DNA of 64,000 bases from Spizellomyces punctatus DAOM BR117 (taxonomy: Eukaryota; Chytridiomycota; Chytridiomycetes; Spizellomycetales; Spizellomycetaceae), in NCBI RefSeq assembly GCF_000182565.1, contig NW_015971537.1:1-64000 (forward strand), read 5' to 3'. The notes beneath the pieces are model-generated. The model searched no databases. It saw only the letters and a list, made by a program, of their open reading frames with translations, and had not been told where the DNA came from. Positions within the stretch are counted from its first letter, which is position 1. Each line of letters begins with the position of its first letter. Positions 3,230-29,177 of the stretch are shown one piece after another. The position numbers and the translations under genes were made by a program.

Positions 3230-3243
3230 GTGGACGAAGTGGA
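3230..3243 (-). promoter_or_regulatory. Cluster motif, P450/oxidase promoter
   Basis: Read on the minus strand this is TCCACTTCGTCCAC, two TCCRC pentamers separated by four bases. It lies 128 bp upstream of the P450 start and about 200 bp upstream of the oxidase start. A further lone TCCACCGCA lies at 3254-3262 (minus). The first 12 bases are identical to a site upstream of the MDR reductase. Confidence 0.6.
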
Positions 3244-3443
3244 TGAAACGAGTGCGGTGGACTTTCCCTTTGCATTTTCGAGTCGCGTTGCCGGACTCTA
3301 CTTAGGAAAGTCCTACCAGAAGCGACGAATGATACACAGCTGGATTTTGACTTGAGCAAACACTCCTTCAGACTACTCCTGCAATATAAATTTATCTGCA
3401 ATCCTCATATCCTTATCACCAGTAACCTCTTAAACCTCACGGC

Positions 3444-5699
3444 ATGATTTCATTGTGTAGTTACATCATTGTTTTCCTAGCGATCCATGTCTCATCCCTC
3501 ATTGCTATACCTCACGGCCGTATTCGCACCTTCCGTTGGAAAATTACGAATATCACAGACGCTCCTGATGGCATTCCTGTCTTTGCAATAGGCATCAATG
3601 GCAGGACAGGCGCCTCGACTGTAATTGGTGCGTGAATGTTCATGCGAGTTATGTTGAATGTTTTTTGAACCTGCTGGGATTGCTGGGGCGACTCAGACGT
3701 CAATCTTGGGGACCTCATCAAAGTGCATGTGACAAATGCACTGGACGTGCCAACAGCTTTGCACTGGCATGGCATCTTACAAGAAGGTAGGCCACCGATG
3801 GAAAGGCGTACATTTGACCCAAAATAAGGACTGATATCGCAAAGGTACGGTGGATATGGATGGGCCCGCTATGGTCACCCAATGTCCTATTCCGCCAGCT
3901 GGCACCTATACGTATACTTGGCGAGCAACTGAAGCAGGAACATTTTGGTGGCATGGCCATTACCGAGGACAATGTACGACCCCATTGTTGGTTGCTCGTT
4001 GAGTGAACAACCTGACACTTCTGTGCGCATTTTCAAGTATCCGACGGCCTTCGTGGTCCGATCATTGTGCGAGGAGCTGAGACTTTTAGTACGTCCAATG
4101 AACTTGCACTGGAAACGTTGCGAGTTCCCAAAACTGACCTGCTGGCTGCCGCAACCCCAAGATTACGATGAGGAGTATATTGTTTTCTTGGAAGACCATT
4201 TCTATAGGACATCCGAAGAAGAAATAGCCGACTACCTCGTAAGTGAACGCAAACTGCGAGAATGCACGTCCGTTCACCATCAAAAATTCACCAGATCCCA
4301 CGAGCCGTTGTGCCTCTTCCTGAGTCTGGTCTCTTGAACCGTAAAGGCTTTCCCCACGGCGGGTTGGATGGCGTCGGTGACCCCTCTAATCTTACTGACT
4401 TCATATTTCAACGGAAGAAGCGTTACCTCCTACGTATCATCAATGCCGCTGCCGTCGTACCTTTTGAGTTCTCCATCGACAAACACAGAATGACAGTTGT
4501 GCAAGCAGATGCCACCGATGTGACGAATATGACTGTGGACAGTATTTATATTGATATTGCACAACGATATTCCGTCATTGTGCATGCCGATCAACTTGTA
4601 GATCGATACTGGATGCGAGCTGTGAGTATTCAAATGCTTCCGCTCTCTCCTAGTCATCCCGGCTAACGATTTTGTAAATTGACCATCCGCCATTTTAATG
4701 AAAAGAAAATGCGTGAGTGAACATGTTAATCGAATTACTCGCGGAAATATGGAGTGCTGATGTCGAGTTTACAGCGGTGTCAAAGCAGAAGCGTTCAATA
4801 GAAGTTCTTGCGACTATCACCTACGATGGAGCGGATGGACGTCAGCGTCCAAGTACAAGTGCTAAGGAGAATCCAGTCACTCTACCGGAAAACGGTCTGG
4901 CGCTGAGCCCAATGGTTCCCCTGATGGCCCCACCCAAAGCCGATAAGACGTACGTCTTTGCGTGGGACTTTCATGCAGATGAAAGTGGGCGAGATGATAG
5001 CGAAGTCACTCGCGGATGGATCAGCGTGAACATAACTAGGCCACTGACTCGGAGTGACGGGCTGAGTTACGTGACGCCAAAACGACCAACTTTGTTCGAC
5101 GTGGTGGACGGAAAGGACCCGGACACCCTGCCCAAAGAAAGCGTTGTTTTCACAGCAGAGCCTCAAGAAGTGGTTGATATTGTGTTTATGAATAGAGAGT
5201 TTCGTATGTACCAATTTCCGAGGTTATTCTTTAGTCAAATGCTCGGGCCTGTATTAACGAGGATATCCATTGATATTTCGGGGTAGCACCTCATCCATTT
5301 CACCTCCACGGCCACACGGTATGGGTCCTCGGCTACGGCACGGCCAAGTCCTATGCGGAAATTCCCTTTGAGAACTTCAATTTGACAAATCCTCTGCGCC
5401 GCGACACCTTTAGCGTCCCATCTGGAACTTGGGATGGGCTCACTTTCGGGTGGACAGTGGTTCGCTTTGTTGCCAATAATCCCGGTGTGTGGTTCCTCCA
5501 CTGTCACTTAGAGTTCCACATCATAGCAGGGCTTGCAATGACTCTGGTTGAAGACGTGGCCGCTCTGAGAAGAATGGGAATATCGCCACAAAGCAGGCAA
5601 CTATGCAGAAGCTTTGAGGAATGGAGAGAAAAGAATGAACTTGGTGAGAAACTGGTTGACGCTACGGAAGAGGGAGATATGTTGGTCATGCAGCCATGA
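3444..5699 (+). CDS. Secreted multicopper oxidase (laccase-like)
   Basis: An extracellular copper oxidase that would oxidise phenolic or similar substrates with O2. The protein starts with a signal peptide (MISLCSYIIVFLAIHVSSLI). The copper-ligand motifs are all present: LHWHG in exon 2, WWHGH in exon 3, HPFHLHGH and HCHLEFHIIAGL in the last exon (from about 5287); the T1 axial position reads Leu. Early exons are 3444-3627, 3697-3786 and from 3845, then short exons to about 4620. The junction between 4621 and about 4780 is ambiguous: the frames on both sides are clearly MCO, but I see no ideal acceptor, and a weak one giving RYWMRA-FTAVSK is possible. Cluster context suggests late oxidation or coupling of the product outside the cell. 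A ferroxidase or ascorbate-oxidase-like role is less likely but not excluded. Confidence 0.88.
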
Positions 5700-5860
5700 A
5701 TTAACGGAAGACGATGAAAGCCATATAACTTTGGGTTTAGAGTTGGGTGCATAAGCCTGTTCCACTACGTGGAGGAAGCACAGTGTTAATACTTGATGCA
5801 CCATACATTGGTAACACTTTCAGCCTATTTGGTTCGAAGCTGTAATATATTTTACAACTA

Positions 5861-7383
5861 TCATCCAAGTATCTTGGTGAATTTTACGAGTTCCGCATCC
5901 ATCACAAGTCTTTTCATTGGGAGGGCTGTTAGTCCGACCATCACTTCGATGCCTTGACGTCCGGGGGCAGCGGGAATAATTACAATTACTCCGTCGCCGA
6001 CTGTGGAACCAGGAGATACAAGAAAGGGACAATTTCCAGTACCGAAATGAAGCTTTTCTGCTTCATAAAATGGATACTTGCTCCACTGAGTAACCGCGAC
6101 GTCGTCACCAAAAACCTCTGTGTGGCTGGTACGAAGAAGCGGAAGCTCGGTTGCCGGGTCCAAGGAAAGGAGATAATCGACACTGGAACGAATTCGCTCA
6201 GGAGAATGTGCCCGAATCGCTTGGCGCAACATGAGCGCCGTGGTACCCAGCGGCTGAGTGAGAAGGTTGTCCACAGTATGCGATACACATAGGCCACTTC
6301 CAACATAATGAGCAATAACAGTTTGCCTGTAAGCACAAGAGGACTGCACCCTAGGTTTGAGAGAGGCACTTACGTTATAAAATTTCCAAAGTAGCCTTTG
6401 CTCTCGGGGGCCAGTGCCTTGATCCTCTCCCGCCCATTCACCGCCAAACCTAGTTTGGTTATACCATTTTGCTCAAGCTCGCGGGCCCTGCTAACCGCCC
6501 TCCAGAAAAGTGCTGCAACAGCATCGTTGGTAGACACCCAAGAGCCATCGTTGAGACCAAGATGGGCGTACTCTTTTAGATTTGCGAGAGCTTCGCTATC
6601 AAGGATAAACTGCTTGCCGTAAATGGGCTCTGGCTTGCGAGTCATTCCCGTATCCTCTTCTCCAGTACTCAACCGGTATTCATGGTTCACATAAGAGGGT
6701 GCAGGCTGGATGATTTCAACGAGATTGGCAAGGTCACGGACAAGGTGCTTCTGCTGAATGCATATCAAATCTTCCTGGACTTCCACTGACGTTTTACCGT
6801 GCAGCTCACTCCACCGATATATGAAATCGAGGAATGCCGGTAAGTCGGCAACATAATGGTGACGGCGGAATCCCACAGCTACTTTGCTTCCTGGGAACTA
6901 CGGAAACCAAGTGGTTACCTATGACCCACGAGAATGGATGTGAACATAACTCAGCTGGCTTACCAATGTTATTTGAACGGCCAAAACTGTCTCTCCAGAT
7001 TTAGGGAACGGTCCTCGAGGAAACAGGTTGGGAGGGATGGTTTCTGGTGCAAACTGACCTTCCACCATTGGCTGAAAATCCTCTTCAGAACCCTGTGCAT
7101 ATACGAGCGTTGCTCCTTTGTTGTTGAAAATGAGACGAGGTACAGCATCTTTTTCTTCAACAAGCTCAGCGGCCAGAGCAGGATATTCGCTTAGAGCGCG
7201 TTCCAAAGAGGACGAAATAGCGCCGTGGTCTGAGAAGCGTCCACTCGGGTCATCAAATAAAAGTAAGAGAGCTGCGTAGACTTTTGGAACGACCAAGTCC
7301 AGAGGAGTTAAATTGACTGACAAGCCCGGAGGCTTTATTTCAACGGATGGCCGAATGGTGGCCTCGGATATGATGCTGATCAT
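5861..7383 (-). CDS. HXXXD-type acyltransferase
   Basis: A 469-residue acyl-CoA-dependent O/N-acyltransferase of the PF02458 (BAHD / trichothecene acetyltransferase-like) family, expected in the cytosol. Three exons (7383-6964, 6897-6374, 6326-5861) keep phase and total 1410 nt. The catalytic HXXXD is seen as HHYVAD early in exon 2. The second family motif, usually DFGWG, reads LHFGTG, so the structural Asp is replaced. The N-terminal NLTPLDLVVPKVYAALLLLF is typical of the family. It is divergent from the MFS exporter with a shared motif-bearing promoter. It probably acylates a hydroxyl of the cluster product; the donor is unknown. Confidence 0.85.
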
Positions 7384-7537
7384 GCTTGTAGTGGTTCAGA
7401 GTTACTGCTCGGCCAAGAATCCCAAAATGCGGGATTGGAATACTAATATGTTTGCTTCAAGCATAAATAGTTCGTTTAAAACCCTGAAGACTTATGTCCT
7501 CTGATTGGAGCAAGCTTGGTACAGCGGACCGGATCGG

Positions 7538-7560
7538 TCCACCGCATCCACTCCATCCAA
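7538..7560 (+). promoter_or_regulatory. Cluster motif, acyltransferase/MFS promoter
   Basis: Three pentamers in register with a nine-base period: TCCAC at 7538, TCCAC at 7547 and TCCAA at 7556. It lies between the divergent acyltransferase (start 7383) and MFS exporter (start 7670). The spacer reads CGCA here rather than NNCG. An imperfect inverted repeat GGACC-N5-GGTCC (7526-7540) overlaps it. Confidence 0.5.
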
Positions 7561-7669
7561 AGAGTTTTACGCCTCGGCGACCTAGGGCGCAATGCTCACG
7601 AATATATATGTCAGTATTGTGAATTACAAATTCGTTTCGCTGTTCAGAAATCCTCAATCCCTCGCAAAC

Positions 7670-9466
7670 ATGACCATCTTATCGCAGCAAGGCTGGTCAG
7701 AATCGCAGCTCGCTTCGGTTTCGCTGGCTATACGTAAGTGTGATCCCCATTCCTGCGTAGCAGCTGTGCCCTGACATTTTTTTGATATGCTGTGTACTTC
7801 ACCAGTTTCTGTCACCCAGTTTTTGGACTTCCTGAACTTATCCGCCCTCAACATCGCAATCCCTACGATCGCTGAAGAACTCAAGATTCCAGCCGGGCTC
7901 GAAGGATGGATCCTCATCTCATACTCTTTGGCGCTATCCGCCTTCATGCTGCCATTCGGAAAGCTGGGAGACGCTTGGGGCCACAGGAACATATTTATTT
8001 GCGGCTTGCTGATCATGACAATAGCGAATATCTTTAGTGCAATGGCACCGACCTTGCCAGTACTGGCCACATTTAGAGGGTTGCAGGGTTTGGGTGCCGC
8101 AGCAACAGTAAGTATCCTGCGCAGCCAGTAGTTATGCTACGCAGCTTAATAGTTTGTCTTGCTGAAGATGCCGAACGCTTCCGCTATTATCGCCCGGATA
8201 TTTCCAGCAGGCGCTCCGCGTAACGCAGCATTTGCAAAGTAAGGAACGATCTTTAACTTTGAAAATATGATCTAACATGTTAGCAACATATGCTAGACTG
8301 GGCGCTGCAAGTGCCATTGGCAGCGCCGCCGGGCTCATCGTTGGAGGTCTTTTTAGCGGGATAATTGGCTGGCGTTACGTCTTCTATGTATTAGCACCGA
8401 TTTGCCTCTTGGTGATGGTCCTGTCACTCCTGTTCCTGCCCGCCGCACAGGATGACGAGACAGTGGACAAAGGTTTGAAGGACTTTGACATTAGCGGGAC
8501 ATTGACCTGGTTGGTGGGCATGTCTCTCATCGTATATGGTGAATATTCCTACATGACTTTCTCTACACTTGCGTGATTGAGGCTAATAGTTTACGTCGTG
8601 CAGTGCTCTCGACTACCAAGGGGGCAGCTTGGAAAGAAGTTCAAACGATGGTACTTTTAGGCATCGGCGTCGCTAGTTTCAGCTCCTTCTTCTTCGTTGA
8701 ACGCAAAGCAGCCCGTCCACTCATTCCACCATACTTGTGGCAAAATCATGTTATTGTGGTGAACTCGATTCTCATCGCCATGGTACGCGGCGGAGCGTCC
8801 ATGTTTGTCTACCTCATGTCCCTCAAACTTCAGAGAATCCTGTTGCTTTCTCCTTGGGAAACGGCATTGCAAAGTTTACCAATGGCAATTGTCGGATTCT
8901 TCTACTCTTTCTTTGTCGGCACCATCGTGAAAAGGCTTGGATTCAGTGTACCTGTCATCCTCGGCTTCGGTATGGCGGCTTTCGGATCCGCCTACTTTTC
9001 GTTTTCCTTGCACGGTCCAGATGAAAATGGTAATAATGCCTCATCGTTTTGGACGTCTACCTTTCCGTCTAGTGTGGTCTTTGTCCTTGGAACTCCGATG
9101 GTGTTCATTTCAGCGCAGCTCGCGATGCTCCACGTCGTGGAACCTCGTCAATATGCGGTGGTTGGAGCACTGTTCAACACTGCCGGTCAGATCGGCGGAC
9201 CTGTGGCACTTGCACTTCTCACGGCAATTATGAATGCAGTACTGGTCAATAAGGAACGAAGTGGCTGGTCCGAGAAAGAACGGCTGCTGGCCAGTTATGA
9301 TGCGGGGAATTGGACAATTGTAGGATGGGAGTTGGTGGGGTTGGTCATCGCGGGACTGTTTTGGTTGCGCCAAAAATTCATTGAGGAAAAGCGGCATCTC
9401 TCTGTAGACGTGGAAAGTGACGAAGGGGAGAGGCAGCGACTCCTAGGAGATACCTCCAACCCATGA
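7670..9466 (+). CDS. MFS drug/metabolite exporter (DHA type)
   Basis: A 513-residue multi-pass plasma-membrane transporter, probably a proton-coupled exporter. Exons are 7670-7733, 7806-8107, 8168-8238, 8297-8538 and 8604-9466, summing to 1542 nt. Family signs are the TM1 segment FLDFLNLSALNIAIPTIAEEL, the loop GKLGDAWGHRN (motif A region), GAASAIGSAAGLIVGGLF (motif C region) and many hydrophobic helices consistent with a 14-helix DHA2 layout. The charged C-terminus (residues after RQKFIEEKRH) is cytosolic. Being divergent from the acyltransferase in a biosynthetic cluster, it is a good candidate for product efflux or self-protection. Confidence 0.9.
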
Positions 9467-9679
9467 CTCTATGATTTTGTTCGTATATCAGATTCATTGA
9501 GAACATCATGAAGAATGCAATGCTTCACTGTTCAGTCAAAGATAATTCTATGACCATCAAACCCTTCTCATCTGTGAGTTTCGGCAAACCGCATGAAAAC
9601 TGCGGAGTGATGACTTTCGACTTTTGCAGTCACATATAGGGCAAGTACTACGCAAACAACTTGAAAAATGTGTAAACTC

Positions 9680-9719
9680 TCCGCAGCATCCGCCGTCCAC
9701 TTCGTCCGCATGGATCCAC
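9680..9719 (+). promoter_or_regulatory. Cluster motif array, MDR promoter
   Basis: Five pentamers within 40 bp: TCCGC at 9680 and 9689 (four-base spacer), TCCAC at 9696, TCCGC at 9705 (four-base spacer, TTCG) and TCCAC at 9715. This is the densest set in the cluster and lies 75 bp before the first ATG of the reductase gene. Confidence 0.6.
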
Positions 9720-9794
9720 TATATACCGACGCCATCAAGATTGCCGGAACAAATCGCCTACATGGCTCATTAAACAACTGGAGAAGGTAGAAAC

Positions 9795-11161
9795 ATGTCC
9801 TTTATCTGTACGCGAGTCCAGCAATTTTCCCCGTCAAAAGCCGGATTGACTTTAAAGGCCCGTCTTTACGCACCGCGATTACTTGGTCATCAGACTTGTC
9901 TTATAGCCCAGCGGAACAGTATTACCTCTATATTGACGTTAAGGATGACAGTCTCTACAATGCGAGCGTATCGATATGACAACACTGGGGGCCTTGACCA
10001 ACTTCGATTACGAGAGGTCCCCAAGCCAGTTCTGGAACCTGGAGAAGCTTTAGTGAAAGTAAAAGCCAGCGGAGTCAATCTGGTACGATCTGCGGTGACC
10101 TTGCAGAAACCAACTGTCATTGACGTTTACTTTGTGCAGTCCGACGTGGTTGGAATTTGCGGTTGGCTTCCATTCGTCACGACGCCCAGAGTACCAGGTC
10201 GAGACTACGCCGGAATAGTGGAGGCGGTACGAGATCAGCATGACGACCACTGGATTGGCAGCGAGGTGTGGGGGACCGGGGGTAATGTAGGTTTTACCGT
10301 TGACGGATCATGGGCAGAGTAAGTGGGTTATGAAAGGAAAAACGCTATAACATCCTCGGTAATCTCTTTGGTCCCTCAACCCTCTGAAGGTATATCAAGG
10401 TACCTGTGAAGGCTTTGAGTAAAAAGCCGACCAACCTCTCATTTGCTGCAGGGGCAACGGTCGGTTTGCCTTGGCTATGCGCCGATCAGGCAGTGAACAC
10501 CCTGGCGAGTGTTCGTAAGGACGATGCCGTACTCATCATTGGCGCCCGCGGTGCAATTGGGTCCGCCGCTGTCCAACTATGTCGATCTATCGGCGTACAA
10601 GAGCTATACGGCACATTTTCCAGCAAGCCATCGGAATCCCCTGGCTTGAAGGCTATCGATCTGAGTGCTGCAGATGGGTCCAACATCGGTGCATATGCCG
10701 ATCTTTTAAAACGAACGGTAAAAAAAGTCAACGTTGTCATCGATGCATACGGGTCAGACTTCGACGCCCATCTACTCAACGCCTCCCTCGACGTCCTGAC
10801 GCCAGGTGGACGAGTGGTTGTGATGGCCGTGCACAGCAAGGTCAGTTTTTCCACGTTTCCAAATCTCAATGCTAGTCTTATTCTCTGAGTACAGTCAGGA
10901 GTATCGTGTCTCAATCTCCGCAAGTTTTATGCCAAGAGCCTCGTTTTATATGGATTAAGTTCGGGACAAGTGACTCAGGAAATGGGAGCACGGTTGCTCG
11001 ATAGACTTGCGCCTGGATTTGAGACTGGAATTTTCAGCAACGAGAGTAAGCCTATGGCTCTGGTAAGGTTTTCCGATGAACAAAAGGTACACGATGGTCT
11101 CAAGGCCGTGTATGAAAAGACGGGAAAGGAAAAATACGTAGTGACATTCGATAGTGAGTAG
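9795..11161 (+). CDS. MDR-family NAD(P)H reductase (quinone oxidoreductase-like)
   Basis: A zinc-independent medium-chain dehydrogenase/reductase. Exons 9795-10318, 10390-10840 and 10895-11161 give 413 residues, or 363 if translation starts at the second ATG (9945, MTVSTMRAYRYD). The N-terminal extension is rich in Arg/Ser and could be a mitochondrial presequence, but the shorter form aligns better with the family start. The fold signs are GLDQLRLREVPKPVLEPGE, VPGRDYAGIV and the nucleotide loop LIIGARGAIGSAAVQLC. The nearest type appears to be RTN4IP1/quinone-reductase. Terrequinone and atromentin clusters pair an MDR reductase (TdiC) with an A-T-TE synthetase, so reduction of a quinone core is a plausible role. 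Confidence 0.85.
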
Positions 11162-11702
11162 TACCAGATGGAGGGGAAAGGCTTGTGTTATACTCATCAA
11201 CAACCATCTCATGGACGTGGTTAATGGTCGAGAGCAAAAGATCATTCGTATGAATGCTGAACTAGTTTTTTTACCACTAAAATACTGCCCATTCACATAA
11301 GTGGGTCCTGAGAGGTTGATTTGGGGTTGAGAGCTACCAGACTCCTTTGGGTCGCTCCAGTCGACAGCAGGATACTTTTGGTACGGTTATCATGAGAAAA
11401 GTTCACACAGTTGTAATCCTCAATTTGGTTGCCAAGAATCAGTCGTCTCGCCTGGGGCAAGCAAGTCGCAGCATCCAACCGTGTGACTGGAGGTATTAGC
11501 GTAAGGCTAAGTGATAACCCGCTTTCCCATTAAGCTCAGGAAGTCGGATGATCCACCACCACCACCACGTAGTCGTACATGACGCTGCTCAACAAGCTGA
11601 GGTGTTTGCCATTTGCATGCAACTACAAATCTATGTGTCCATCATCGCCAAGCGTATATTTAAAGCAGGTCCATTTTTTTGGCCCTATACCAATAATATC
11701 AT
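11162..11702. other. Intergenic between convergent genes
   Basis: The stretch separates the 3' ends of the reductase and the methyltransferase. I see no gene-like frame and no cluster motif; it should hold both terminators. Confidence 0.5.
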
Positions 11703-13115
11703 CTAGATCGGGATAGCCTCCACGATACTAATCGCACTCCTGTTTTCATGCACATCCACAATCCGGAATCCCGCGTCGTAAAACAACTTCTTAAACTGCT
11801 CCTCTGTTCTTTGCAGAGAGTTCACTAGGGTCAGCATGTTGACATCTACCATGTGCTTGACACGGTTGGAGGTAGCGGTCATTACAAACTCGGCGGCGAA
11901 GAAACGACCGTCTTCAGAGATGGCTTGGCGAATGTGGCGAAGGATTCGTAGACAGTCAACATCGCTCCAATTGTGGAGGCACTGCTTAATCAAGAAATGT
12001 CGGTGTCGACCACTTTGAGGCTGGAAGAAGTCATGAGGAGTAAAAGTTACGCGAGAACACAGTTCGGCGTCTTCTTTCGCCCAAAACTGCAGGAAAAGAG
12101 GAGACGGCAGTTTAGCTTTAATGGTAAAATCACAATTAAGCTGTGAACTAACAAGCAAACCAACCTTTTTAGCGTCATCAATGACGCTTGGAAGATCCTG
12201 AAGTTCGAAAGTGAGATTTGGCCATCGTTTGCACAGGGCAAGATCAACTGCTCCAACCCCACAGCCAATATCCACTAGCGTGGCCTTCTCGCCGAGAATA
12301 GACCAATCAAAGTCTTCGACAATCCCGTCTTGCAAACCATTACTGTAATTCGACATCGCACCGTTCACGCGTGTCGATAAAGCAGCATTTTCCGGCTGAT
12401 GAATCCAGTCATAAAAGCTCTTTCCCATTTCCAGTTCCCACGGAGCTTTACTTGCATTGGCAAGCCGAATAGCTTCAGCAAGCCGGTTGGCACCACGGTA
12501 ACTATCATGGCCCCTACGGCAGTGAATTGTCAGAAAGTACGACAGCTTAAAATTGACAGATATCATTTCTCCTACCAGTGAAGCACAAAATCTCTCATGC
12601 TTTTAGGATGGTCCGTCCTTAAGGACGACGAAATGGCATTGTTGGTAAACTTTTCACCATTTTGGATAAAGACGGAGCGGTTGGCAAGCAGTGAGAGGAT
12701 TTGTCCTTAACCGACGAGTATTAGTACACAATAATCATGATATTGAGATCCGACGAACGAACTCACGCAATTTCCTCGGATCAGCATCTACCAGTTTAGC
12801 AATTTCATCAATTGACAACTCCGAATCTTTAAGCGCATCCGCAATGCCGAGGTCTGCCGCTGCTGTCAATGCTTTTGACTCTAAGCAGCTGCCCACAATC
12901 AAGGTAAGTACGTCCTGTGGCGGAGCAAGCATGCTTGTCAACTTGTCGACGCCATCCCAACAAGACTGGAGAGCCTTGCGTGAATCGATATTCACGGCAT
13001 TGTGGTTGCGCTTCAAGTCTGACACACTCGTTTTAATGTTTTGCAGAGTAGAAATCAATTTATCGATTTCTGAAAGTACGCTTGCAGGCTCCGCGGCAGG
13101 AATTTCGATGGTCAT
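11703..13115 (-). CDS. SAM-dependent O-methyltransferase (COMT-like)
   Basis: A 403-residue class I methyltransferase of the plant COMT/fungal OMT type that would methylate a phenolic or carboxyl oxygen. Four exons, 13115-12767, 12705-12576, 12513-12165 and 12086-11703, sum to 1212 nt. An N-terminal helical dimerisation/winged-helix part (LTLIVGSCLESKALTAAADL) precedes the SAM loop VDIGCGVGAVDLALC. The catalytic His is seen in KQCLHNWSD, and MVDVNMLT near the C-terminus is typical. It is cytosolic with no signal peptide. The upstream region carries a perfect copy of the cluster motif, tying it to the same regulon. Confidence 0.9.
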
Positions 13116-13249
13116 AATGGAAAATAGTTTTTCTCCTTACGGGAGTTGGGATGTGATAATGGGTTTAAATATTTCAAGGCTGAGTTTATAAAGGAGCTCA
13201 AGGCTCCTTCGAGTGGACACGGTAGGTTGACCCGCGTCAATCCGAGCGA

Positions 13250-13263
13250 TCCGCCTCGTCCAC
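13250..13263 (+). promoter_or_regulatory. Cluster motif, methyltransferase promoter
   Basis: The site reads TCCGCCTCGTCCAC, a full match to TCCRCNNCGTCCRC. It lies 135 bp upstream of the O-methyltransferase start. A single inverted pentamer (GTGGA) occurs nearby at 13213. Confidence 0.6.
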
Positions 13264-13578
13264 AGGAGATCGCAGCACTCGTCACACACAAAAGTTTAGA
13301 AAGGGCGGAGCATTTCGTGCAGCTACTGCTCACTGATCACTTGTCCTTGCACAGGCCTGCGGCACCAGAAAAGGAATATCCCGGCTTCTAATGCTCCGAG
13401 ATCATGAACACAGCCATGCTGAGCATTGAGGTTTCTTACAAGGAATGCACTGTATATGCAAAAATAAGCCTGTGTTTTGTACAAATGCCTCTTTCACATA
13501 CAGTTTGCAGGTAATGCTATACTTGCATATACAGATACTTTTATGACGTCAATAGATTTGAGCTCGTAGGCATGACAG

Positions 13579-15004
13579 CTACAAGCAGAGGTGATGATGC
13601 TCTACATATCCGATACCCCACTCTGCGGAATCTGTCACCCTATCGTCTACAATGGAATGGCCATTCAGATCAACTTTAATACGGGTGGTCCCACCGGTAT
13701 GCTGACATTCTGATGAGATCCTATACTGCGCCGGGAGATGGTAGTAACCTTTCTCTCCGCAGATGTCATACTTCAACAGGTAACTCGTTAATGCTGAATC
13801 ACCCTGTCGATTTTGAATAAGGGAGACGTCTGCTGGGTTCCACAAGCTAAAGAGAGGATCGTGATGGTGGGCAAAATATGCAGCAAGGACCGAGTCTACA
13901 GACATCAAAGTCATTTTAGGATTGTAGATCGCTGTTGAGGTCGCATTGCTTGCGCACGTACCTTGACCATCAGGGGACGTGGACATTATAGCATTGAGAG
14001 TGATATTCCAGCTATGTGCGCGCAATATCGACCTGCATTTCAAGTTCCGGCAGTGTGATGAGAGACAATCCTGAGATTGCCACAATATGGAAATATTCGC
14101 ATCAAACTCACCATTTGTAGTCTTTATTTACCGGAATAATTTGACCCCACCGATGACTCTGCAAAAGCAGTACGAGGATTATTGATCAGTATATACCCAC
14201 CGGTTTCTAACTTTCAGAAACGAAACTCTAATGCGTCGGCACGTACGTGAAAGCCGACATTTTGAATTGTCCACCTTTCGCCATCCGCGAACTCTACCCA
14301 TCCGTCGACGTGAGCACGAGGGATCGGGACAATGAAATTGAAAAATGGGAAGACGCTAACCGAAGAGTCGTATTGCCGAGGAATGAATGGCATGGAAATC
14401 ATACTTTCAGATATCAAAGATGTTAGACACATCCCGCAATCGACAGTTGTTGTGCCTCCACACATTTTAAACCCAGGGCTTACTTTTCGTAAGTCAATCT
14501 AGCTCTAAAACCTTCGATAGCAATTTCCAGCTCGTAGTATTTCATATCCGGCGTCCAGGAAAATTTGTTAGATCCCATTGTGAGCGAGTGATTTCCTTGT
14601 TCGCGGTACACTGATGTCGACTTCACGCTCTTTGTCCAGTGAGTTCCATTGGGTAGAGTATACTCTACGACGAAGACAGGATCGTACCCTCCGTGCGCAG
14701 GGTCGTTCAAATACCAGTTGAAGAAGAACTCGGTGTTGTTTTGCAACAGCACCACATCGAAATGCCATGATTCGAAGGCACCTTCACCAAAATGTCGTAA
14801 GCGCGGTGCATCAAAAGATCCATTTAATGCCAACGGAGGGAATCTCTGACAACTGCGGTAGGGAAGATCGAAGGCTGTCAAATGTGGGTCATCAACGAAA
14901 ACATGTGAAGCGAGATTCGTTATGGGGGTTTGTTGGATGAGCGATGGTGTCGGTGCGCCTTGGACGCCGCACAATAAGGCACAGAAAAGGACTATGAGGA
15001 TCAT
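13579..15004 (-). CDS. Secreted CrtC/AttH-lipocalin (pericyclase-like) protein
   Basis: A 392-residue protein with a signal peptide (MILIVLFCALLCGVQGAPTP). Exons 15004-14484, 14403-14247, 14158-14112 and 14032-13579 sum to 1179 nt; the start at 15004 is preferred over an in-frame ATG at 15058 because it opens directly on the signal peptide. Family marks of the hydroxyneurosporene synthase/AttH fold, which includes fungal decalin synthases (Diels-Alderases such as CghA and Fsa2), are FESWHFDVVLL in exon 1, VPIPRAHVDGWVEF in exon 2 and GFH-SHRWGQ across the exon 2/3 junction. Known decalin synthases act in polyketide-peptide pathways, and no PKS is here, so a cyclisation, hydration or isomerisation role is inference only. 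It shares a promoter with the asparagine synthetase gene. Confidence 0.72.
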
Positions 15005-15098
15005 TTGGGTGATGAAAGCTTCAAATGATGATGGCAAGAGGGCAGTACGAACGCTCACTCATAAAAGAGCAAATAGAACTGGGCTTGCAACTGCCCTA

Positions 15099-15145
15099 TC
15101 CACATCGTCCACCAGGACCAAAACGCGCCTGTCCGCTACGTCCAA
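15099..15145 (+). promoter_or_regulatory. Cluster motif pair, lipocalin/amidotransferase promoter
   Basis: A full site TCCACATCGTCCAC at 15099-15112 and a near match TCCGCTACGTCCAA at 15132-15145 lie between the divergent lipocalin gene (start 15004) and asparagine synthetase fusion gene (start 15294). Confidence 0.6.
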
Positions 15146-15293
15146 ACTGTTGCTCTGCCATCCATTGCGAGAATGAATTTTATATTCTGCGGCATATTTG
15201 TACAGCTCCGCTTGTCGCAAAGTATTTCAGTGCCGGGTGCTTGATATCTCATTTGCTTTCTTACTCGAAACTCGCAAGACACTCTCCTTAGCG

Positions 15294-18200
15294 ATGTGTG
15301 GGATCACTGCCTTTGTTGATACGGGGGGCCGCCAGAGAGTCTCCCCTGCACAGTTAGAGTCCGCTCTCGATCTCATCCATCATCGCGGACCAGACTCGAA
15401 GGGGACATTCATTACTCCGGATAGGCGAGTCGGTAAGATAATGGACAGAATGCGGTGGATTTATGACCTTGTTGTACTCTCTAACGCAAAAGAACATAGG
15501 TCTCGGGCATAATCGTCTCGCCATCATGGGTTTGGCAACAGGACAACAGCCAATTTCAAACGAAACTGGTGATATCCATGTTGTAGTGAATGGAGAGCTG
15601 TACGGATTTGAGGCAATTCGTTCTCAATTGCACGCTGACGGCCATGTGTTCAAAACCGAAAGTGATAGCGAGATTGTAGTTCACTTGTACATATTCCTTT
15701 TCAGCTTTCAGATCACTACTGGCAAAACTAATACAATTTATATTCAGATATGAGGACCTTGGCCTGTCGTTTCTCGAGCGCCTCCGCGGCGAGTTTGCAC
15801 TCTGTCTCTGGGACAGCCGAAGGGGACTTTTCATAGCCGCCCGGGACAGGTTCGGCATCAAACCATTGTACTATAGCGTAATCAACGGAGCACTTGTCTT
15901 AGCCAGCGAAATGAAAGCATTCCTTGCTCTGGGATGGAAACCCGAATGGGATATCGAAAGCATTGTGCACGGCGGTTCCTCCTTTGATAACAGAACCGTA
16001 TTCAAAGGTGTTAGCAAGGTTTGGTCGAGTGCCTGCTCACATTGCATGGAGGTACACTCATCTTCTCGTATGCATTAGCTGCCCGCTGGAAAATATATGA
16101 CTGCGACACTCTCCGGCAGCGTCGATATCCAAACGTACTGGGATGCAGCCTACCCAGACAAGCGTGTACCAGATGTACGTAATCTAGAAGATATGATCCA
16201 AGGCGTTCGTGAACGCCTTTTCGAAGCTATCAGAGTGCGAATGCGATCGGACGTGCCTTTGGCGATCTACTTGAGCGGAGGCATAGATAGCGCTGCTATC
16301 GCAGGAATCGCGATGGCTATTCTAAGGGAGACTGACGCTAAAGCGAGTATTGATGCTTTTACCATCGCATTTCCTGGTAAAGGTATAGTTTTCCTACTCA
16401 TGTACGACTTTACTCTGGCCTGAATTTTTGCACGGGTAGGAGCTGAACAGTTCGACGAAGGACCTATTGCGGAACGCATGGCAAGACACATCGGTGCCAC
16501 ATTCCATAAGATTCCCATCACAGAGGATGACCTGGTTGCTGGATTTGAAGATGCAATATGGCATTTCGAGCACCCGATGCCAGATCTGAACGCGATCGGA
16601 AAATACCTACTGTCCAAAGAAGTCCGAGACCGCAAGTTTAAGGTGCTGTGCTAGGTTTCAATTCACTGTTGGTCGGCCTCTGTCCAATATCTGATATTGC
16701 TCAATCGCATTGTCATCATAGGTCGTGCTCACCGGTGAGGGGGCTGACGAACATTTCGCTGGATATGCTTTCTTTCTGGCGGATTACCTTCGCGAACCTG
16801 ATGTGGCGGTTGAAAATCCTTTGTCGGATGTCCAGCGAGAGGCTAAATTAAGGGAAATTGAAGGAGTGACGGGCGGATCCTATGATACAGTTCTAGTCTC
16901 AAAAATGTCATACAACGACGCTTCGGTTGGACGGCAAATGCTTAATGGAATAAGCAGCCATCGTCAACTGGCAGGGGCAGCCCAAATCCCCCAAGATATA
17001 TTTCAAAAATCGCTTATAGAGAAAACTGGTGCTCCTGATGCGTGTACCGCCCTTGCGGTAGGATTGAGTGGAATAGCTAGGGAGAATGCAAGAACGAAGG
17101 TAATGTGTATTCGTTGGTGTATTTATCTCCGAGTCATAAATTCAAGCTTGCCGTCTACTCCCCTTCTACCATCAGTGGCACCCTCTGCATACGGCTTTGG
17201 TGAGTTTCTAATGCTTGGTGCTCATTATCCCCTATAGGTATTTACTCGTTTCATCAGTATGCGGAAAGTAGGACGTTTCTGGGGAACGTATTGTGTAATG
17301 TCTTGGGAGATCGTAGCGAAATGGCTCATTCTGTTGAGGGGCGCACTCCTTTCCTCGACCATCACCTATGCGCATATGTAAACAACCTTCCACCGTGAGT
17401 ATTGTCGCCGAGGTTTTCTTATTAATTATTCTAGCAGTTAGAACAACTTAACTATGTTCGCAGCTCCGTGAAGATACGTGCGTCTCAAACAGGTGAATTG
17501 ACTGAAAAATGGATATTGCGGGAAGCAGCAAAGCCCTATATTTCGGAAGAAATTTACAATAGGCGTAAACATCCCTATTTGGCACCTGTGTCAAACCTCG
17601 CCGAATCTCCCGTCGGTGTTCTTCTCAGGCAACGTATCACAAAGGAAGCTATCGACAGGCTAGGGTGGGCTCGATGGGAGGTGGTGGAGCAATTGAAGGA
17701 ATCGTTTGAAACGACGGGGTCAACTATGGCCTTACGCACATTGCTGGTCATGTTGTCATTCGTTGTGATGAGCGAAAGGTTTAACGTGAAGATCTATGAA
17801 GACAGCTCGACAGAACTTGTCACCAACTTTAAGCAAGAGTCTAATGATAGTACCAGGGATGTGGAATCCTGCCCTGGAAGTAATCCACCGCTCTTTCAAG
17901 TAGAGACGAAGCTTCCTGACGAAGATGTATCAATGATTTCTGGATGGAGATTCTATGTTCTAATTTTCATGTAGTGTCTGTCCTGCGATGTGTTTTTTCA
18001 AAGGCAGGCATCTCACATAGACTTTCTCCTCATATAGGTTGGGAATGGTTGTTTTCCTTGCGGCCCTTGACCAGGTGTGTAGTGTGTTCTTGGAAATGAT
18101 TTGACTCTGATTGGTGCCATATCATAAGTAACCCTTCCACTCTCATGAAAGACCATAGTTGCCCCAGCGGTGGTCAAAATCGCCGATGAATTCAATGCTA

Positions 18201-19882
18201 GTTCACAGCTGTCATTGATTGGCACCGCATATCTGTTGACATCGGTTAGCGTTCAACGAGAGATTGAGTACAAGTATCAACAATTTCTGATTTACGTATC
18301 ACCCCACTTAGACATGCGTTGCCCCACTCTACGGAAAGCTGTCTGACATCTTTGGCCGGAAATACACCATTATCGCGGCAGTCTTACTGTTTTCGATTGG
18401 ATCCTTGCTATGTGGAGCATCAAACGGAATGGCGCTACTTACCGTTGGACGTGCAGTCGCCGGCTTGGGTAATTTTCGATTTGTTTCAGACAAATAGAGC
18501 AAATAGCTTACTTTCGACTGTAGGAGGCGGAGGACTAATCAGTCTCGTACTCATCATCATCGCCGATATCGTTGCAATTGGTGAACGCGCCAAATACCAA
18601 GGGCTTATGGGAGGGGTTTTTGGTCTAGCTGCTGTCGTTGGTCCGCTGGTCGGAGGTGCATTTACTGATCACTGGAGCTGGAGGTGGTGCTTCTATATCA
18701 ATCTTCCAATATGCGCTGTCGCCGCTACGGCGATATTCTTTCTTTTGCGAACTCGATCCGGAGAACCAGGGAGCGTACAGCGAAAGCTGCGGCGGCTTGA
18801 CTACATCGGCACGACCTTGATCATTGTCGGTTGTGTTTGCTTGCTGTTGCCTCTGCAGTTCGCTGGTGAACGATGGAAGTGGGACAGCCCACAAACCATT
18901 ATCCTCCTGATTCTAGGCGCGGTGTTTGCTGTCGCATTTGGATGGTCGGTCACCAAAGTCTCTGAGCCGATCCTCTCACCTCAACTTTTCAAGAACCGGA
19001 CCGCCGTTGCCCTTCTGGCTACATCCTTCTGCCTTGGTGTATCTTTCTATGCAGAAGTATTTTACACCCCGTAAGTGGCTCTTGTAGTTCCCTTCTATAT
19101 CTATCGATGCCACTCCCATTGACATTTTCGCTCTTAGAATCTACTTCCAGGTTGTTGATGGTGCCTCCTCCACTGCCGCAGGATTACAGACAATCCCTTT
19201 GATTATGGGCGTTGTTTTCATGAGCGTCTTGTCAGGTACAGTCAAAACAGCTAAAGCCTGAAACATTGATGTAGCTGACCTTGTATTGTTTTTACATGCA
19301 GGCCACCTCATTGCCAAAACAAACGTCTACCTCATTTATCCATTTATTGGTTCGGTCCTTTCTAGCATTGGGCTTGGCTTGATGTCCACTCTCAATGCAG
19401 ACTCTAAGACGTGGCAGCGAATCATTTATCTGCTCATCGCGGGATTGGGAAGTGGCAGTATTGTTCAAACAGCTGTGGTCGGCATACAGCACAGTGTGAG
19501 TCCCGACCTCATTGCAGTGGCCACCAGTGCCAACACTTTTGTCCAAATTCTTGGAGGGTAAGTTCTAAATGTCATATGCCAGATCGGTATTTCCGCGAGC
19601 GTAACTCAAGGTATTTTCCTGCTCTTCAGTGTATTTGGCATAGCCATGTCTGGTGCAGTTTACAACAACGTTCTCAATCATTGCCTCTTATCCGATGCTC
19701 CTTCCGTGGACGCTGCCAAATTGCAGTCTGCCAACGATCTTATACAGACGTTACCGGACAACGTCAGGCATGCGGTTGAAGCATGCTTCACAACGAGCCT
19801 TCAGAAGACTTTCCTATCATTAGTGCCATTTGCGGCACTTATCTTTGTCTTCATGCTGTTCACAAAGGGAAGGAAATTTTAG
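15294..19882 (+). CDS. Asparagine synthetase-MFS transporter fusion
   Basis: One reading frame joins a glutamine-dependent amidotransferase to a membrane transporter. Exons are 15294-15432, 15500-15686, 15748-16018, 16079-16376, 16440-16642, 16722-17099, 17176-17199 (24 nt), 17258-17394, 17464-17970, 18038-18074, 18152-18244, 18312-18468, 18524-19070, 19138-19235, 19302-19557 and 19630-19882; they sum to 3585 nt (1194 residues). The glutaminase half is intact: MCGI with Cys2, LGHNRLAIMG, VVNGELYG and ESDSEIVVHLY. The synthetase half has the PP-loop YLSGGIDS, GEGADEHFAGY and SVEGRTPFLDHHL. An acidic linker of about 45 residues leads to MISGWRFYVLIF, then an intron, then the rest of TM1. The likely task is ATP- and Gln-dependent amidation of a pathway acid, coupled to export. 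Two adjacent genes with overlapping ends remain possible. Confidence 0.8.
17933..19882 (+). CDS. MFS exporter moiety of the fusion (or overlapping gene)
   Basis: This part encodes residues 703-1194 of the fusion and looks like a full DHA-type exporter. TM1 ends in VVFLAALDQTIVAPAVV, motif A is GKLSDIFGRK, motif C region is GGVFGLAAVVGPLVGG followed by SWRWCFYINLP, and the C-terminus ends in a short basic tail. It could begin at its own ATG (17933) inside the last synthetase exon if transcribed separately; I see no cluster motif or clear promoter there. If the intron 17971-18037 is retained, its first complete codon after ATG is TAG, which would release the synthetase alone. Confidence 0.8.
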
Positions 19883-19943
19883 AGTGCTTAGGGACACTGG
19901 GTCAAACTTTGAAAGCTTGAGCATGTAGCGTTAGGGTTTCTAA

Positions 19944-20102
19944 ATCTCGCCATCTGTGTATTATACGATATATCTATGCAATATGATGTCTTGCGGTAGT
20001 TGTGGCCTGGCTTCAGGGTGTTGATTAGGGTTAGCGCTCCGGATCTCGCCATCTGTGTATTATATGATATATCTATGCAATATGATGTCTTGCGGTAGTT
20101 AT
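19944..20102. repeat. Tandem repeat, 99-bp period
   Basis: A block of about 60 bp beginning ATCTCGCCATCTGTGTATTA occurs at 19944 and again at 20043 with only a few changes, and the bases between and after the blocks are also alike. It lies between the 3' ends of the fusion gene and the orphan membrane-protein gene. No coding function is seen; together with flanking bases it makes up most of the gap 19883-20257. Confidence 0.85.
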
Positions 20103-20257
20103 AGCTGGCTTCCAGGGAGATCCCATTCCTCAACACATCGCGGAATAATGCAAAGTGGATTTCAAAGCCCTAGGAAAGTTCGAGCCTAGCATATGTATTG
20201 CAAGTCATAGCGACAAATTTGTCTAAAGAATCATAGAAGTCCTGAACTGTCCTAAAT

Positions 20258-22922
20258 CTACAAGGTCTCTGTGCTCGCTGAGAGTAACAAAAGGTGGTAG
20301 CCAAAGGTTGAAAATAACAGCAGGAGAATTATCAAAGGAAGGGTGTAAGCAAGGTTGCGTGCAATTGCCCGATGATAACGACCTGCTTCTGTAATGGTGC
20401 TTTGTGATGCAGCTGATTGCACTCCTTCCCTAATGGGCATCCGACTAGTGATAGCAACGTTGCATTCGTCGAAGGTTTGAAGAATGATAGTTATTTTCGC
20501 TTTCTGGAGGGTGTCGTCCGTCGTGGAAAGCGTTAATGAGATCTTTCCATCGATATCGTTCGAGATGAAAATGTCGGTGCAAGTAGCAGAGGTTTTGGTG
20601 CTTGTAACCCCTTGCGCTAGATCCTCCGATGCAGAAGAGTCGGCGTATGATTTTCCATGTTCTGTGGACAGCTTCTTCTGCCTCCTGGTACTATCGACGG
20701 AAGAGACAGAGTTTGTGGGCTCTTTGTACCTTGTGGAGTCGTTTGGATGTGTGGTGCCGCAAGATGCTCTGTCTTTACTGGTATCGACGGAAGAGACAGA
20801 GTTTGTGGGCTCTTTGTAGTTTGTGGAATCGTTTGGATGTGTGATGTCGCAAGATGCTCTGTCTTTACGCGTAGTTGGAGAAGACTTCTTTTTACTAGCA
20901 TCGTCGGATGTTTTATGAGCTTCCGTAGTCTGCGGTTTCTTGCCTTGTCTCTCTTGCGGGGAATGACTTTCTTCTTCAAAAAAGCCTGGGAGAATTACAC
21001 GTTTGCCAGCGCGGATTCTATCCTCTGTAACTACAGCCAAGTGTCTCGGTCGTTCCAAAAACATGTGCTGCGGAACAAACAGATGCATTGCATCATAGGA
21101 GGTTCCCAACTTATGAGAGAAGGCGATAAGTTTGCGATGTTCTTCATTCATGAATCGGAGGCCGTTACTATTGAACGATTGGGTGAGAGGATCACCATCT
21201 TCAGTAATATCGGACGCATTCAACGGGAAAGGATAGTTGGAATGCTGGGCAAAAAACGTGGTGATGACATCGTTGAAATTGCAGGACAGGATTTGACTCA
21301 CGGCCTTCTTATTGTTCTGGCAATCGCAGTCGTCGTGTAGTCGGGACCACGGACCCTCTCCAGTCACGCCGGAGACTAACTCGGAATTTCCTCCGTCGAG
21401 AGAGTTTGCGATAATACAAATGTGCGGTTCATCGAGACAAGGATCAAAGTTGGTTGCCGATTGAATATCTATAGTCTCCACGTGCTTGACGGTAAAAGTG
21501 ATCTCGTTGCCGATTATGTAGCGACGCAGGACATCTTCATCTGCATCATCTCCCGGCGGTGCCAAGGCTGTCGTGGGATGAGGCTCGATGCGAAAGTAAT
21601 TTGCGTGGTATCCTGAATATTGGCAGTAGGCAATCAATTCAATGCTACTAACTAGATAACACCAAACCACTTACATACCTTGAGGACAAAAGCGATAAAC
21701 TAACAAAAATGTAGGAATATCCCTCATGACCCAGGCGTGCCTGATTGCAGGTATAGTCAAAAAGGTTGGAACGGCCGCAATTCCACGAGCTGACACACGC
21801 ACGGTCTCGCGAACCGCTCTATAAAATATAGAAGTACAAACATTACCAGCAGAACCTTGTATGCAGCAAAAGTGTTACGAAGCACTACCTTTCAACGCTT
21901 CGAGGCATTCCCATTGCCCCACATAACTTCTCCATGAAACTGCACGAAAGACGCGAGACCCATATCTGCATCATGGAGATCTCGTCGTTTATGAGGCGGG
22001 GTCCGTCCTTGCGCACCCTGTACGTACATCTGGCTGGGGTGTGCACGCAGCGGCAGATCAGCTCTTCCCCGTCGCGAAGGACGTGGGCATCGAAGGCACG
22101 CTGTTGCGAGACGCGATATATGAAGGCTTCTGCATCCGGTCGGTGCAAACATGTTTTGAAGCGGGAAAGAAAATTCGCGTAGACCAGAAAGCGAACGACA
22201 GTGCGGAAGTTCTTTACATCCCAGATGGGATGTCCTTCGCTCGAAATTGCTTTAACCCGACCGCCGTTGCCCGAATGCCTGATCTGAGGTGAGCCGGGCG
22301 GCGTAGGAAGCTGATGGTTGGGAGAAATCGGGACAGCAAGATCGAAGCTGCCACTTGCACGGGCCTTGGTCGAGTGAATAGTGTTTTCCGTGAAAAGGAG
22401 ACTGTCATAGCTCTCAGGGTCAACCCATGTGGTAAACCATTCCGATAGACCGACTTTCCGATAGAAGGCGTTGAGGGTTTCTTCCTTCCTGCTCAACCCA
22501 TTGATTTTCTCGACGGGGGTATTTTCATCACAAAGTTTTCGGTGTACTTCCATAGCTTTCGTCACCATGGCTTCCAGCTTTCTCTTGGTCAGATTGAATG
22601 CCTCCAGCGTTTGATCAGGATGTTTTCTGTACTCCCCAACTATCTCCATGAGCAGCATGGGGCGAATCTGGCATGCACAATCTCCAACGTGAGCATCAAA
22701 ATCGAGGAAGCCATCCCATGAGTACGAATTGTTCTTGATATCAGTGCTATGGCGACTCGACTCTCCGATGACTTTTGCAGGAAACAAGAGATTTTCGAAG
22801 CTCTCCAGCGCATGAAGGGCGTCTCTCGCTCCGCGGATAATCCGTCTAAGGTGGAACGGATACAGCCTCTGCAAGAGAGGTTTCTCGCGAGCAGATTCAT
22901 CGTCAAAAAGAAGAGTCGCCAT
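20258..22922 (-). CDS. Orphan membrane protein inside the cluster
   Basis: I do not recognise this protein of roughly 850 residues. Exon 1 (22922-21889) ends in GMPRSVER and joins, in phase, a short exon (about 21825-21682, AVRETVRVSARG to LLVYRFCPQG) and a long last exon (about 21621-20258). The first half is mostly soluble, with a clustered Cys stretch (GDCACQIRP). The last part is hydrophilic and Ser/Thr/Lys rich with two copies of a 30-residue repeat, and ends with one hydrophobic segment (YTLPLIILLLLFSTFGYHLLLL) followed by only a few residues, like a tail anchor. It is divergent from the NRPS-like gene and shares its motif-bearing promoter, so it may belong to the pathway, but no function can be given. 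Confidence 0.65.
20693..20872. repeat. 90-bp coding tandem repeat (two copies)
   Basis: Two nearly identical 90-bp units within the orphan gene encode a 30-residue repeat containing THPNDST and YKEPTNSVSSVD. The exact multiple of three keeps the frame, so the duplication happened or survived within a translated gene. Confidence 0.85.
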
Positions 22923-23096
22923 TACGAAAGTCAGTTAGAACCGCGATAACACACAGTGGAACACATATTCCCGCCGGACTCATTTATTAAGAGGACATGA
23001 TGGTAAGGCCTGCCTGCGGACTGTTCTATCCGCCTGTTGCGGGTGGCAGTGCTCTGTTTTCTGTTGTACATCGGATGATGGGAGCATTCCTCCGAG

Positions 23097-23110
23097 TCCA
23101 CCACGTCCGC
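23097..23110 (+). promoter_or_regulatory. Cluster motif, NRPS-like/orphan promoter
   Basis: The site TCCACCACGTCCGC is a full match to TCCRCNNCGTCCRC. It lies between the orphan gene (start 22922) and the A-T-TE gene (start 23339). Confidence 0.6.
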
Positions 23111-26300: not shown

Positions 26301-26361
26301 ACTATACGTAGGACACTTTCAAAAAATTTTTAAAGATAGCTTGGCTAAAGCTGGTCTTTAA
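23339..26361 (+). CDS. NRPS-like A-T-TE synthetase (arylpyruvate-condensing type)
   Basis: The likely core enzyme of the cluster. Exons 23339-25239, 25324-25801 and 25861-26361 sum to 2880 nt (959 residues), the usual length of AtrA/TdiA-type enzymes. The adenylation domain (about residues 35-590) has LLLTSGSTGMPKAVELTHGN, FDHVACAVENH, GFGMTETCAGC, FKTGDCG and a C-terminal Lys in KTSLGKLPRG. The carrier domain has FFERGGSSLEVIR with the phosphopantetheine Ser. The thioesterase has Ser in GYSYGG and His in VPGSHYTLMN. There is no condensation or reductase domain. Family members activate two aryl- or indolyl-pyruvates and condense them to benzoquinones, furanones or butyrolactones; that role is inferred here. 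The ATG at 23339 is chosen; the frame stays open upstream to 23231 without another ATG. Confidence 0.9.
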
Positions 26362-26716
26362 ACGACATGTTTGTAATTACTTGATTAGATTTGGGTTAGG
26401 ACTATTGCAAGGTTGTCATTCTAGATATTTGTAGTCAGATCCAATATGCAAGTGTCCATCTTTGAAGGGAAATGCGCTAAATTCCTAAATGCATACTATT
26501 GGACGTTAGATAGTAGGTATGGATGCTGAGTAGTAAGTATCACGAATCAAAGGACATTTTGAACAGCGTTCTCCAAGTGAAATGCAATGACATTCTGATA
26601 TATGAATGGTATATGCAAATAATTCTATTTTGAAAAAAAAAAAAAAGAAAGAAAGAAAGTAAGCTGTTGCGTATAATGCCGCTGGAGCTGATATGATCCC
26701 ATTATAGAGCTGTAGG
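26362..26716. other. Intergenic, convergent 3' ends, poly-A/GAAA tract
   Basis: The gap separates the last cluster gene from a zinc-finger gene. It holds an A-rich run with short GAAA repeats at about 26631-26659 and nothing else I can identify. It is the natural right border of the cluster. Confidence 0.6.
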
Positions 26717-28039: not shown

Positions 28040-29177
28040 AAAGGGGAATATGAACCGGGCAATACTGAGATTAATGACAGAAAAAAAAAAAAGAAAACTA
28101 TTGGGCTCAGGCAGCCAACTGTTCGCTTCATCACTGAAGTTGCAAGAACCATTCACAATGCTGTGTACCTTGGATCAAGAAGACTGCTGTTGTTGCAGTT
28201 ACAAAATCTGAGAGTGGGATCCACGAGGTGTAGCGTCGTCTGGCGACAAGGGGATTGTGTGGATGAAGTTGAAGCATTTTGGCCAGGACAATTTCAGTAA
28301 CGGAGGACAAGCGGGACGTTGAGGAATTTTATAAAGCAAACCCCATATGTTCGCGCCCTGTGGCAGCGAAATAGGTATGCGCAGCAACGGCCTTTGCCAT
28401 TAAAAGCTCTTCCCGACATCCTTTAGCCCACGTTTGCTGCTTGTTGTTCTTTACTATAGTACTCTCCATCCAGTTATAGAAAATCAGAGGTGAAATGGAT
28501 GCGACGACCTAGGGACCAAAGCGCGGGTATGCTGCGGCATGCATTTTTCAGCCTGGTCATTGCCATCATCTATACCATATCCGTCTTGTTTGACGAGTAG
28601 GCGTTAGGGCTAAAAAATGGAGGGAAGACGGTGGGCGGAGGCGCAATGGGGGAATCCAAGTAGAATCGCAAAAACCTTTGGAAGTTCATCGACAGCTTTT
28701 TGCTTATCTAACTGGATTGGAAGGAAAGCCACGTTGTCGGGTCAAAATTTCGGATATTGATCGGAGGCAAAACGTAAGCAAAGCAAGTGTTATTATCCAA
28801 GAAAGTAACTTTGGGCCAAAATCCACACTTGTAAGGCTTTGAAACCGCTTTGCACCCAGAGTTTCACGCAAAAGAAGTGTTCCAAAAACGCGTGGGCAGT
28901 TGCCGTCAAGATACGAAAAACAGCCGAGAATGACACTTGACAGGTATTTGGCGCAGCAGAATCTGGTAAAATGAATGTGGCCGCCATTAGAAAAAACAAC
29001 TCGTGGCAAGTCACGGCTGGCTGGGGGGGCAGTGGACGGAGTGGACCGGAACAGATTAGCGCCATCCGCTTCTGCTTTTTAATCGACGGCCCCATTCCTC
29101 CTCGAGTGACAATTCCCTTTTGTTGACTTTTTTATTTTATTCCAAAACCTCTTACAAACCGGTTACCTATTTTAGAC
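28040..29177. other. Intergenic region upstream of phosphate carrier
   Basis: About 1.1 kb between divergent genes. It should hold the unresolved first exon of the zinc-finger gene near 28100-28200 and the promoter of the carrier. No other gene-like frame or RNA gene is seen. Confidence 0.4.

Follow-up and report, generated by a model that had tools for sequence, protein, structure and literature searches.

A tandem nine-base repeat in the upstream regions of an A-T-TE gene cluster of the chytrid Spizellomyces punctatus, a probable operator of one pathway-specific activator

The DNA analysed here, referred to below as the window, comprises bases 1-64000 at the left end of contig C1 of Spizellomyces punctatus DAOM BR117, whose genome totals 23,997,880 bases. 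Gene models made in this analysis give ten clustered genes with six common upstream regions. From left to right, these genes encode a cytochrome P450 (901..3072, minus strand; PF00067, E 4.9e-40; start codon at 3072 or 3101), a laccase-like multicopper oxidase (3444..5699, plus; PF07731, E 1e-26, last exon), an acyltransferase (5861..7383, minus; PF02458, E 9.4e-15, one exon), MFS transporter 1 or MFS1 (7670..9466, plus; PF07690, E 9.8e-8, one exon, where the 31.7 bits fall below the cut-off of 33.4), a medium-chain dehydrogenase/reductase or MDR (9945..11161, plus; PF08240 and PF00107; a start at 9795 is also possible), an O-methyltransferase (11703..13115, minus; PF00891, E 7.4e-26), a lipocalin-like protein (13579..15004, minus), an amidotransferase/asparagine synthase with an MFS transporter (15294..19882, plus), an orphan protein (SPPG_00010; 20258..22922, minus) and an A-T-TE quinone-synthetase-like protein (23339..26361, plus). 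The lipocalin-like gene keeps its label from a preliminary description of the window and has no Pfam match. The amidotransferase gene of that description does contain an amidotransferase, and it also continues into an MFS transporter, with GATase_7, Asn_synthase and MFS_1 in one open model of 1214 aa; no stop lies between the asparagine synthase/amidotransferase part and the transporter, which may be an enzyme-exporter fusion. The A-T-TE protein matches g02367 of S. palustris at 93% and many named atromentin synthetases at about 42-46%. To the left of the P450 gene, bases 1-900 hold no gene model and no telomere array, only a lone CCCTAA at 47. Because the cluster is located at the contig end, it could be cut on this side.

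The orphan gene is divergent from the A-T-TE gene. A-T-TE and orphan genes bear consecutive locus numbers, on contigs that match in length, in three other chytrid genomes, namely S. palustris (g02367 / g02368), Geranomyces variabilis (HDU87_006667 / HDU87_006666) and G. michiganensis (HDU86_008409 / HDU86_008410), and we place the orphan in the cluster on account of these adjoining numbers; together with the motif in its upstream region, they uphold the earlier proposal that it belongs there. At E 0.001 the orphan has 14 relatives, fungal proteins with S. punctatus itself included, while the orphan itself scores above cut-off against no family of Pfam or NCBIfam and has no sequence relative in the PDB. 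Its structure model is of good confidence in part, with 473 of 842 residues at a pLDDT of 70 or more. The family shares invariant F-D-x-H-x-G-D-x-x-C residues, which suggest that the orphan may be an enzyme. A hydrophobic helix closes the Spizellomyces copies. In one relative, from Chaetothyriales, the protein is attached to a zinc-cluster regulator, which may reflect a fusion of gene models.

A pattern search of the 64-kb window found TCCRC-N4-TCCRC in all six upstream regions common to the ten genes; read on the opposite strand, the element is GYGGAYG-NN-GYGGAY. The search bore out that the exact form, TCCRCNNCGTCCRC, fits five of the six regions and that the sixth has CA for CG, a change carried by the site at 7538 and by the second MDR site at 9680. 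Between the P450 and laccase genes lies an exact site (TCCACTTCGTCCAC, 3230..3243, minus strand), with an extra GTGGA half-site at 3257; the gap to the start codons is 128 or 157 bases on the P450 side and 200 bases on the laccase side. The CA-for-CG site between the acyltransferase and MFS1 genes (TCCACCGCATCCAC, 7538..7551, plus) is followed by a third half-site, TCCAA, at 7556. Upstream of the MDR gene there are two sites, one with CA for CG (TCCGCAGCATCCGC, 9680..9693, plus) and one exact (TCCACTTCGTCCGC, 9696..9709, plus). Further exact sites precede the methyltransferase gene (TCCGCCTCGTCCAC, 13250..13263, plus) and lie between the lipocalin-like and amidotransferase-MFS genes (TCCACATCGTCCAC, 15099..15112, plus), where a second pair with one mismatch is found nearby (TCCGCTACGTCCAA, 15132..15145, plus). 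The region between the orphan and A-T-TE genes has an exact site (TCCACCACGTCCGC, 23097..23110, plus) with an extra TCCTC in register at 23088. All seven sites in the earlier list (3230-3243 on the minus strand; on the plus strand those starting at 7538, 9680, 9696, 13250, 15099 and 23097) were recovered, but an exact site at 29032-29045 had been overlooked.

The distance from site to start codon is 85 to 235 bases, both extremes coming from the two possible MDR starts. GTGGA makes up 11 of the 16 half-sites and GCGGA the other five; the base that follows is C or T in 15 of the 16 (GYGGAY) and G in one. The extra half-sites TCCAA at 7556 and TCCTC at 23088 keep the nine-base register, although three half-sites in register occur 42 times in the genome and twice in the cluster, so that this pattern is not rare. 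One of the nine loose sites in the window, at 8716, falls within the coding model of MFS1.

The window contains six exact matches, where shuffled sequence averages 0.02, and nine matches to the loose form TCCRCN4TCCRC, where it averages 0.42. Across the genome (24.0 Mb) the exact form occurs 34 times and its reversed-pattern control 26 times; for the loose form the counts are 540 and 355. Six of the 34 exact matches lie in the first 29.2 kb, which is 0.12% of the genome, where the rate outside those 29.2 kb predicts 0.034 (Poisson P 2e-12), and the nine loose matches there compare with an expected 0.65 (Poisson P 3e-8). An equal density of the motif elsewhere is therefore not what the genome-wide count gives. 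Direct pairs with a four-base spacer number nine in 1-29200, whereas no other spacer exceeds four pairs; the nine-base period is specific. Four-spacer direct pairs are absent from 29201-64000, and the four-spacer pair is also missing from the two 3'-3' intergenic regions inspected (19884-20260 and 26362-26716). That chance, base composition or codon bias might explain the motif draws on the excess of the loose form over its reversed control genome-wide (and of the exact form, 34 to 26), but the clustering, the spacing and the shuffles contradict it, and the statistics leave such an explanation hardly credible.

The element also emerged from a scan that presupposed no motif, in which every pair of 4-mers with spacers of 0-16 was counted in the six upstream regions (2124 bases). 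Fourteen pairs, or seven distinct ones on both strands, occurred in four of the six regions, and six of these seven are pieces of TCCRC-N4-TCCRC; the P for a single 4-mer dyad is about 3e-5, uncorrected for the many pairs tried. No pair occurred in five or six of the regions, and because A and G alternate in the motif no single undegenerate 4-mer pair spans all six. A weight matrix built from seven sites scores those sites at 19.4 to 23.3 bits and, once exact sites are masked, finds no match of at least 17 in 219 kb of background sequence, a result which shows separation only and is circular for the seven sites, since the matrix was built from them. Compared pairwise, the seven sites average 0.82 identity in the core and 0.30 and 0.29 in the two 30-base flanks, where random sequence gives 0.25 (sd 0.08); the slight excess in the flanks may stem from the extra half-sites. 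The promoters are not copies of one another. The element recurs against differing backgrounds, the pattern that selection on a binding site should leave.

For each of the 28 exact sites elsewhere in the genome, the neighbouring sequence was examined. Under a stricter coding rule (a frame of 200 codons or a codon score of 9), which picks out 554 of 624 coding control positions and 17 of 367 non-coding ones, 21 of the 28 are coding and seven are not, and none of the eight cluster sites is coding; for the six exact cluster sites against the others, Fisher P is 1.3e-3. An initial count, which combined open frames, codon scores and inspection by eye, had put 24 of the 28 in coding sequence. The laxer rule of that count, which also flags 129 of the 367 non-coding positions and three of the eight cluster sites, raises Fisher P to 0.05; it weakens the contrast in coding share and leaves the main tests unaffected. 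Among the unflagged sites, three (L016, L017 and L034) appear by eye to be in coding sequence, and L014 is flanked by two apparent converging 3' ends; L018 and L021 precede candidate starts, judged by eye, by about 640 and 490 bases. No second promoter-proximal exact site outside the cluster was found among the 28, with starts judged by eye and L027 unassigned. Outside the cluster the motif is rare, and above all in promoters (28 exact matches in 24 Mb, 21 of them coding). The gene that follows the site at L021 (4000-4013; C3:1624186-1624199), with its candidate start about 490 bases away, shows GATA-like and C2H2-like Cys pairs by eye and has no Pfam match over cut-off.

To the right of the A-T-TE gene, the overlooked seventh site, an exact match (TCCACTCCGTCCAC, 29032..29045, minus strand), lies 132 bases upstream of the start codon of SPPG_00013 (29178..30465, plus), which encodes a mitochondrial phosphate carrier. 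The preliminary description had taken the motif for a cis-element common to the whole cluster, ending at the A-T-TE gene and so marking its limits. Its presence in all six upstream regions, far above chance, stands; its ending there does not, and because of the seventh site the motif gives no clean right-hand limit. The S. palustris carrier, g02365, is on the same contig as g02367 and g02368, from which we take the gene order to be kept in that species. The carrier has relatives at 84% identity in both Fimicolochytrium and Powellomyces, at 83% in Geranomyces, and a further one at 76% in Fimicolochytrium, and because such carriers are also present in these genera SPPG_00013 is probably an old housekeeping paralogue and not a cluster duplicate. 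By its site it is probably a member of the regulon, without being a biosynthetic gene. Either the regulon takes in one ordinary neighbour or the carrier site is a relic. That the site is a product of chance or a relic, with the regulon stopping at the A-T-TE gene, would suit the carrier's resemblance to an old paralogue with relatives of 83-84% in three other genera; we consider this somewhat unlikely, as the match is exact, its distance falls within the range of the other sites, and in the 3 kb around the second carrier copy, on C21, every match has at least two mismatches.

One more gene, by its numbering in the place of SPPG_00012 (28277-26717, minus strand), separates the A-T-TE gene from the seventh site. 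Its protein is Cys/His-rich and Ser/Pro-rich, with a basic NLS-like stretch. A regulator of the cluster encoded next door by this gene would fit the finger-like spacing of its Cys and His residues by eye, its single copy, and the S. palustris numbering, which leaves one gene between g02365 and g02367. It is nevertheless an improbable candidate: no Pfam match is above cut-off, the best, at 13.3 bits, being to a ubiquitin-binding finger; no motif pair lies within 700 bases before the start at 28277; and the match at 28259 sits inside its own coding sequence.

Within the cluster the motif is concentrated, keeps a single spacing and holds a promoter-proximal position. It is probably the operator, in the sense of an upstream activating sequence, for one pathway-specific activator of the S. 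punctatus A-T-TE cluster. Judged from the DNA, a protein would bind the element and activate transcription, and one factor would serve all the promoters. This factor would recognise two like-oriented copies of the pentamer at an interval of nine bases, at one or two sites placed 85-235 bases before each start codon; a single site between each divergent pair would serve both genes, and the one pathway-specific transcription factor would thereby switch on the whole A-T-TE cluster. One source (PMC7466969) describes zoosporic fungi, among them the Chytridiomycota, as poor in secondary metabolites, although another (PMC8106346) now speaks of anaerobic gut fungi as an untapped reservoir. A clean operator of one cluster would be a direct handle: it points to the genes that deserve joint study, favours the assignment of an unknown protein family, the orphan, to the pathway, and could act as bait with which to find the activator and turn the cluster on.

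As to the class of the binding factor, a Crz1-like C2H2 protein with three fingers is the most likely, though we advance it tentatively. C2H2 arrays prefer triplets starting with G, and the nine-base unit may be read as three finger triplets, GYG GAY GNN, each starting with G. The genome has 80 C2H2 finger matches, and of 20 arrays chosen from these for reading, some in part, 17 were by eye of the three-finger N-D-A kind, which we take to be Crz1-like. So many arrays of this type in S. punctatus (17 of the 20, L042-L061) perhaps reflect a family expansion. However, the finger recognition code sets a residue requirement for GAY, and because no middle finger among the 17 arrays carries that residue the Crz1-like class is weakened. 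The Crz1-type core (GNGGCK or GYGGT) is matched in GYGG and missed at the fifth base, which is A; this A is kept in all nine window matches with at most one mismatch, partly through selection, the half-sites having been chosen as GYGGA. A CreA/Mig1 site, which is SYGGRG, was also considered and rejected, as G follows GYGGA in one of 16 half-sites and C or T in 15. In the fullest and rather doubtful form of the C2H2 proposal, a three-finger factor diverged from Crz1 would stack head to tail on the nine-base units (three triplets each), the number of sites would set promoter strength, and the dedicated regulon would include the mitochondrial phosphate carrier; if true, a zoosporic fungus would here have a regulon specific to one pathway.

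Comparison with known systems draws on the available portions of the papers cited. The terrein cluster of Aspergillus terreus has operators of consensus TCGGHHWYHCGGH, bound by the cluster's own activator, TerR (PMC4360782), and these resemble the present element in having direct-repeat half-sites at a fixed short spacing in the promoters of one pathway. They differ in that TerR, a Zn2Cys6 factor, has CGG half-sites and a five-base spacer, whereas the half-site is GYGGA, the spacer four bases and the host a chytrid in S. punctatus. The shared architecture raises the possibility that a Zn2Cys6 (Gal4-type) factor binds the direct repeats here, and the genome does have 16 zinc-cluster matches. 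We hold this to be unlikely, since CGG is present in five of the 16 half-sites and so is not conserved, and since, unlike the TerR cluster, contig C1 has none of the 16 matches in an exon-by-exon search, which could miss an intron-split domain.

For the C2H2 factor that we prefer, a parallel is Rua1, a C2H2 zinc-finger activator of the whole ustilagic acid (cellobiose lipid) cluster of Ustilago maydis; like the proposed factor it activates one cluster, but it differs in that rua1 is listed among that cluster's own genes (PMC7673458, in the portion available). The earlier statement that no named regulator has this site holds in so far as searches of the literature by TCCRC and by topic showed none among the papers listed, but Crz1 sites with a GYGG core are known (PMC6942403). 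These sites, GNGGCKCA and, in Candida albicans, G(C/T)GGT, have the G-Y-G-G core in common with the element; their fifth base is C or T where here it is A, and tandem nine-base repeats are not seen for Crz1 in the available text of either source (PMC9604740, PMC6942403). Among the papers listed by literature searches, none names the six queried locus tags and none treats cluster-specific regulation in chytrids. In Fusarium graminearum, the same logic has been applied to clusters whose promoters over-represent a motif relative to the genome (PMC4198257, as far as available); that species is an ascomycete, and the likeness is one of logic, the motifs themselves not having been compared. Activator-bound motifs common to the promoters of a cluster are well known, and what is new here, as far as the literature searches show, is the motif and the host group.
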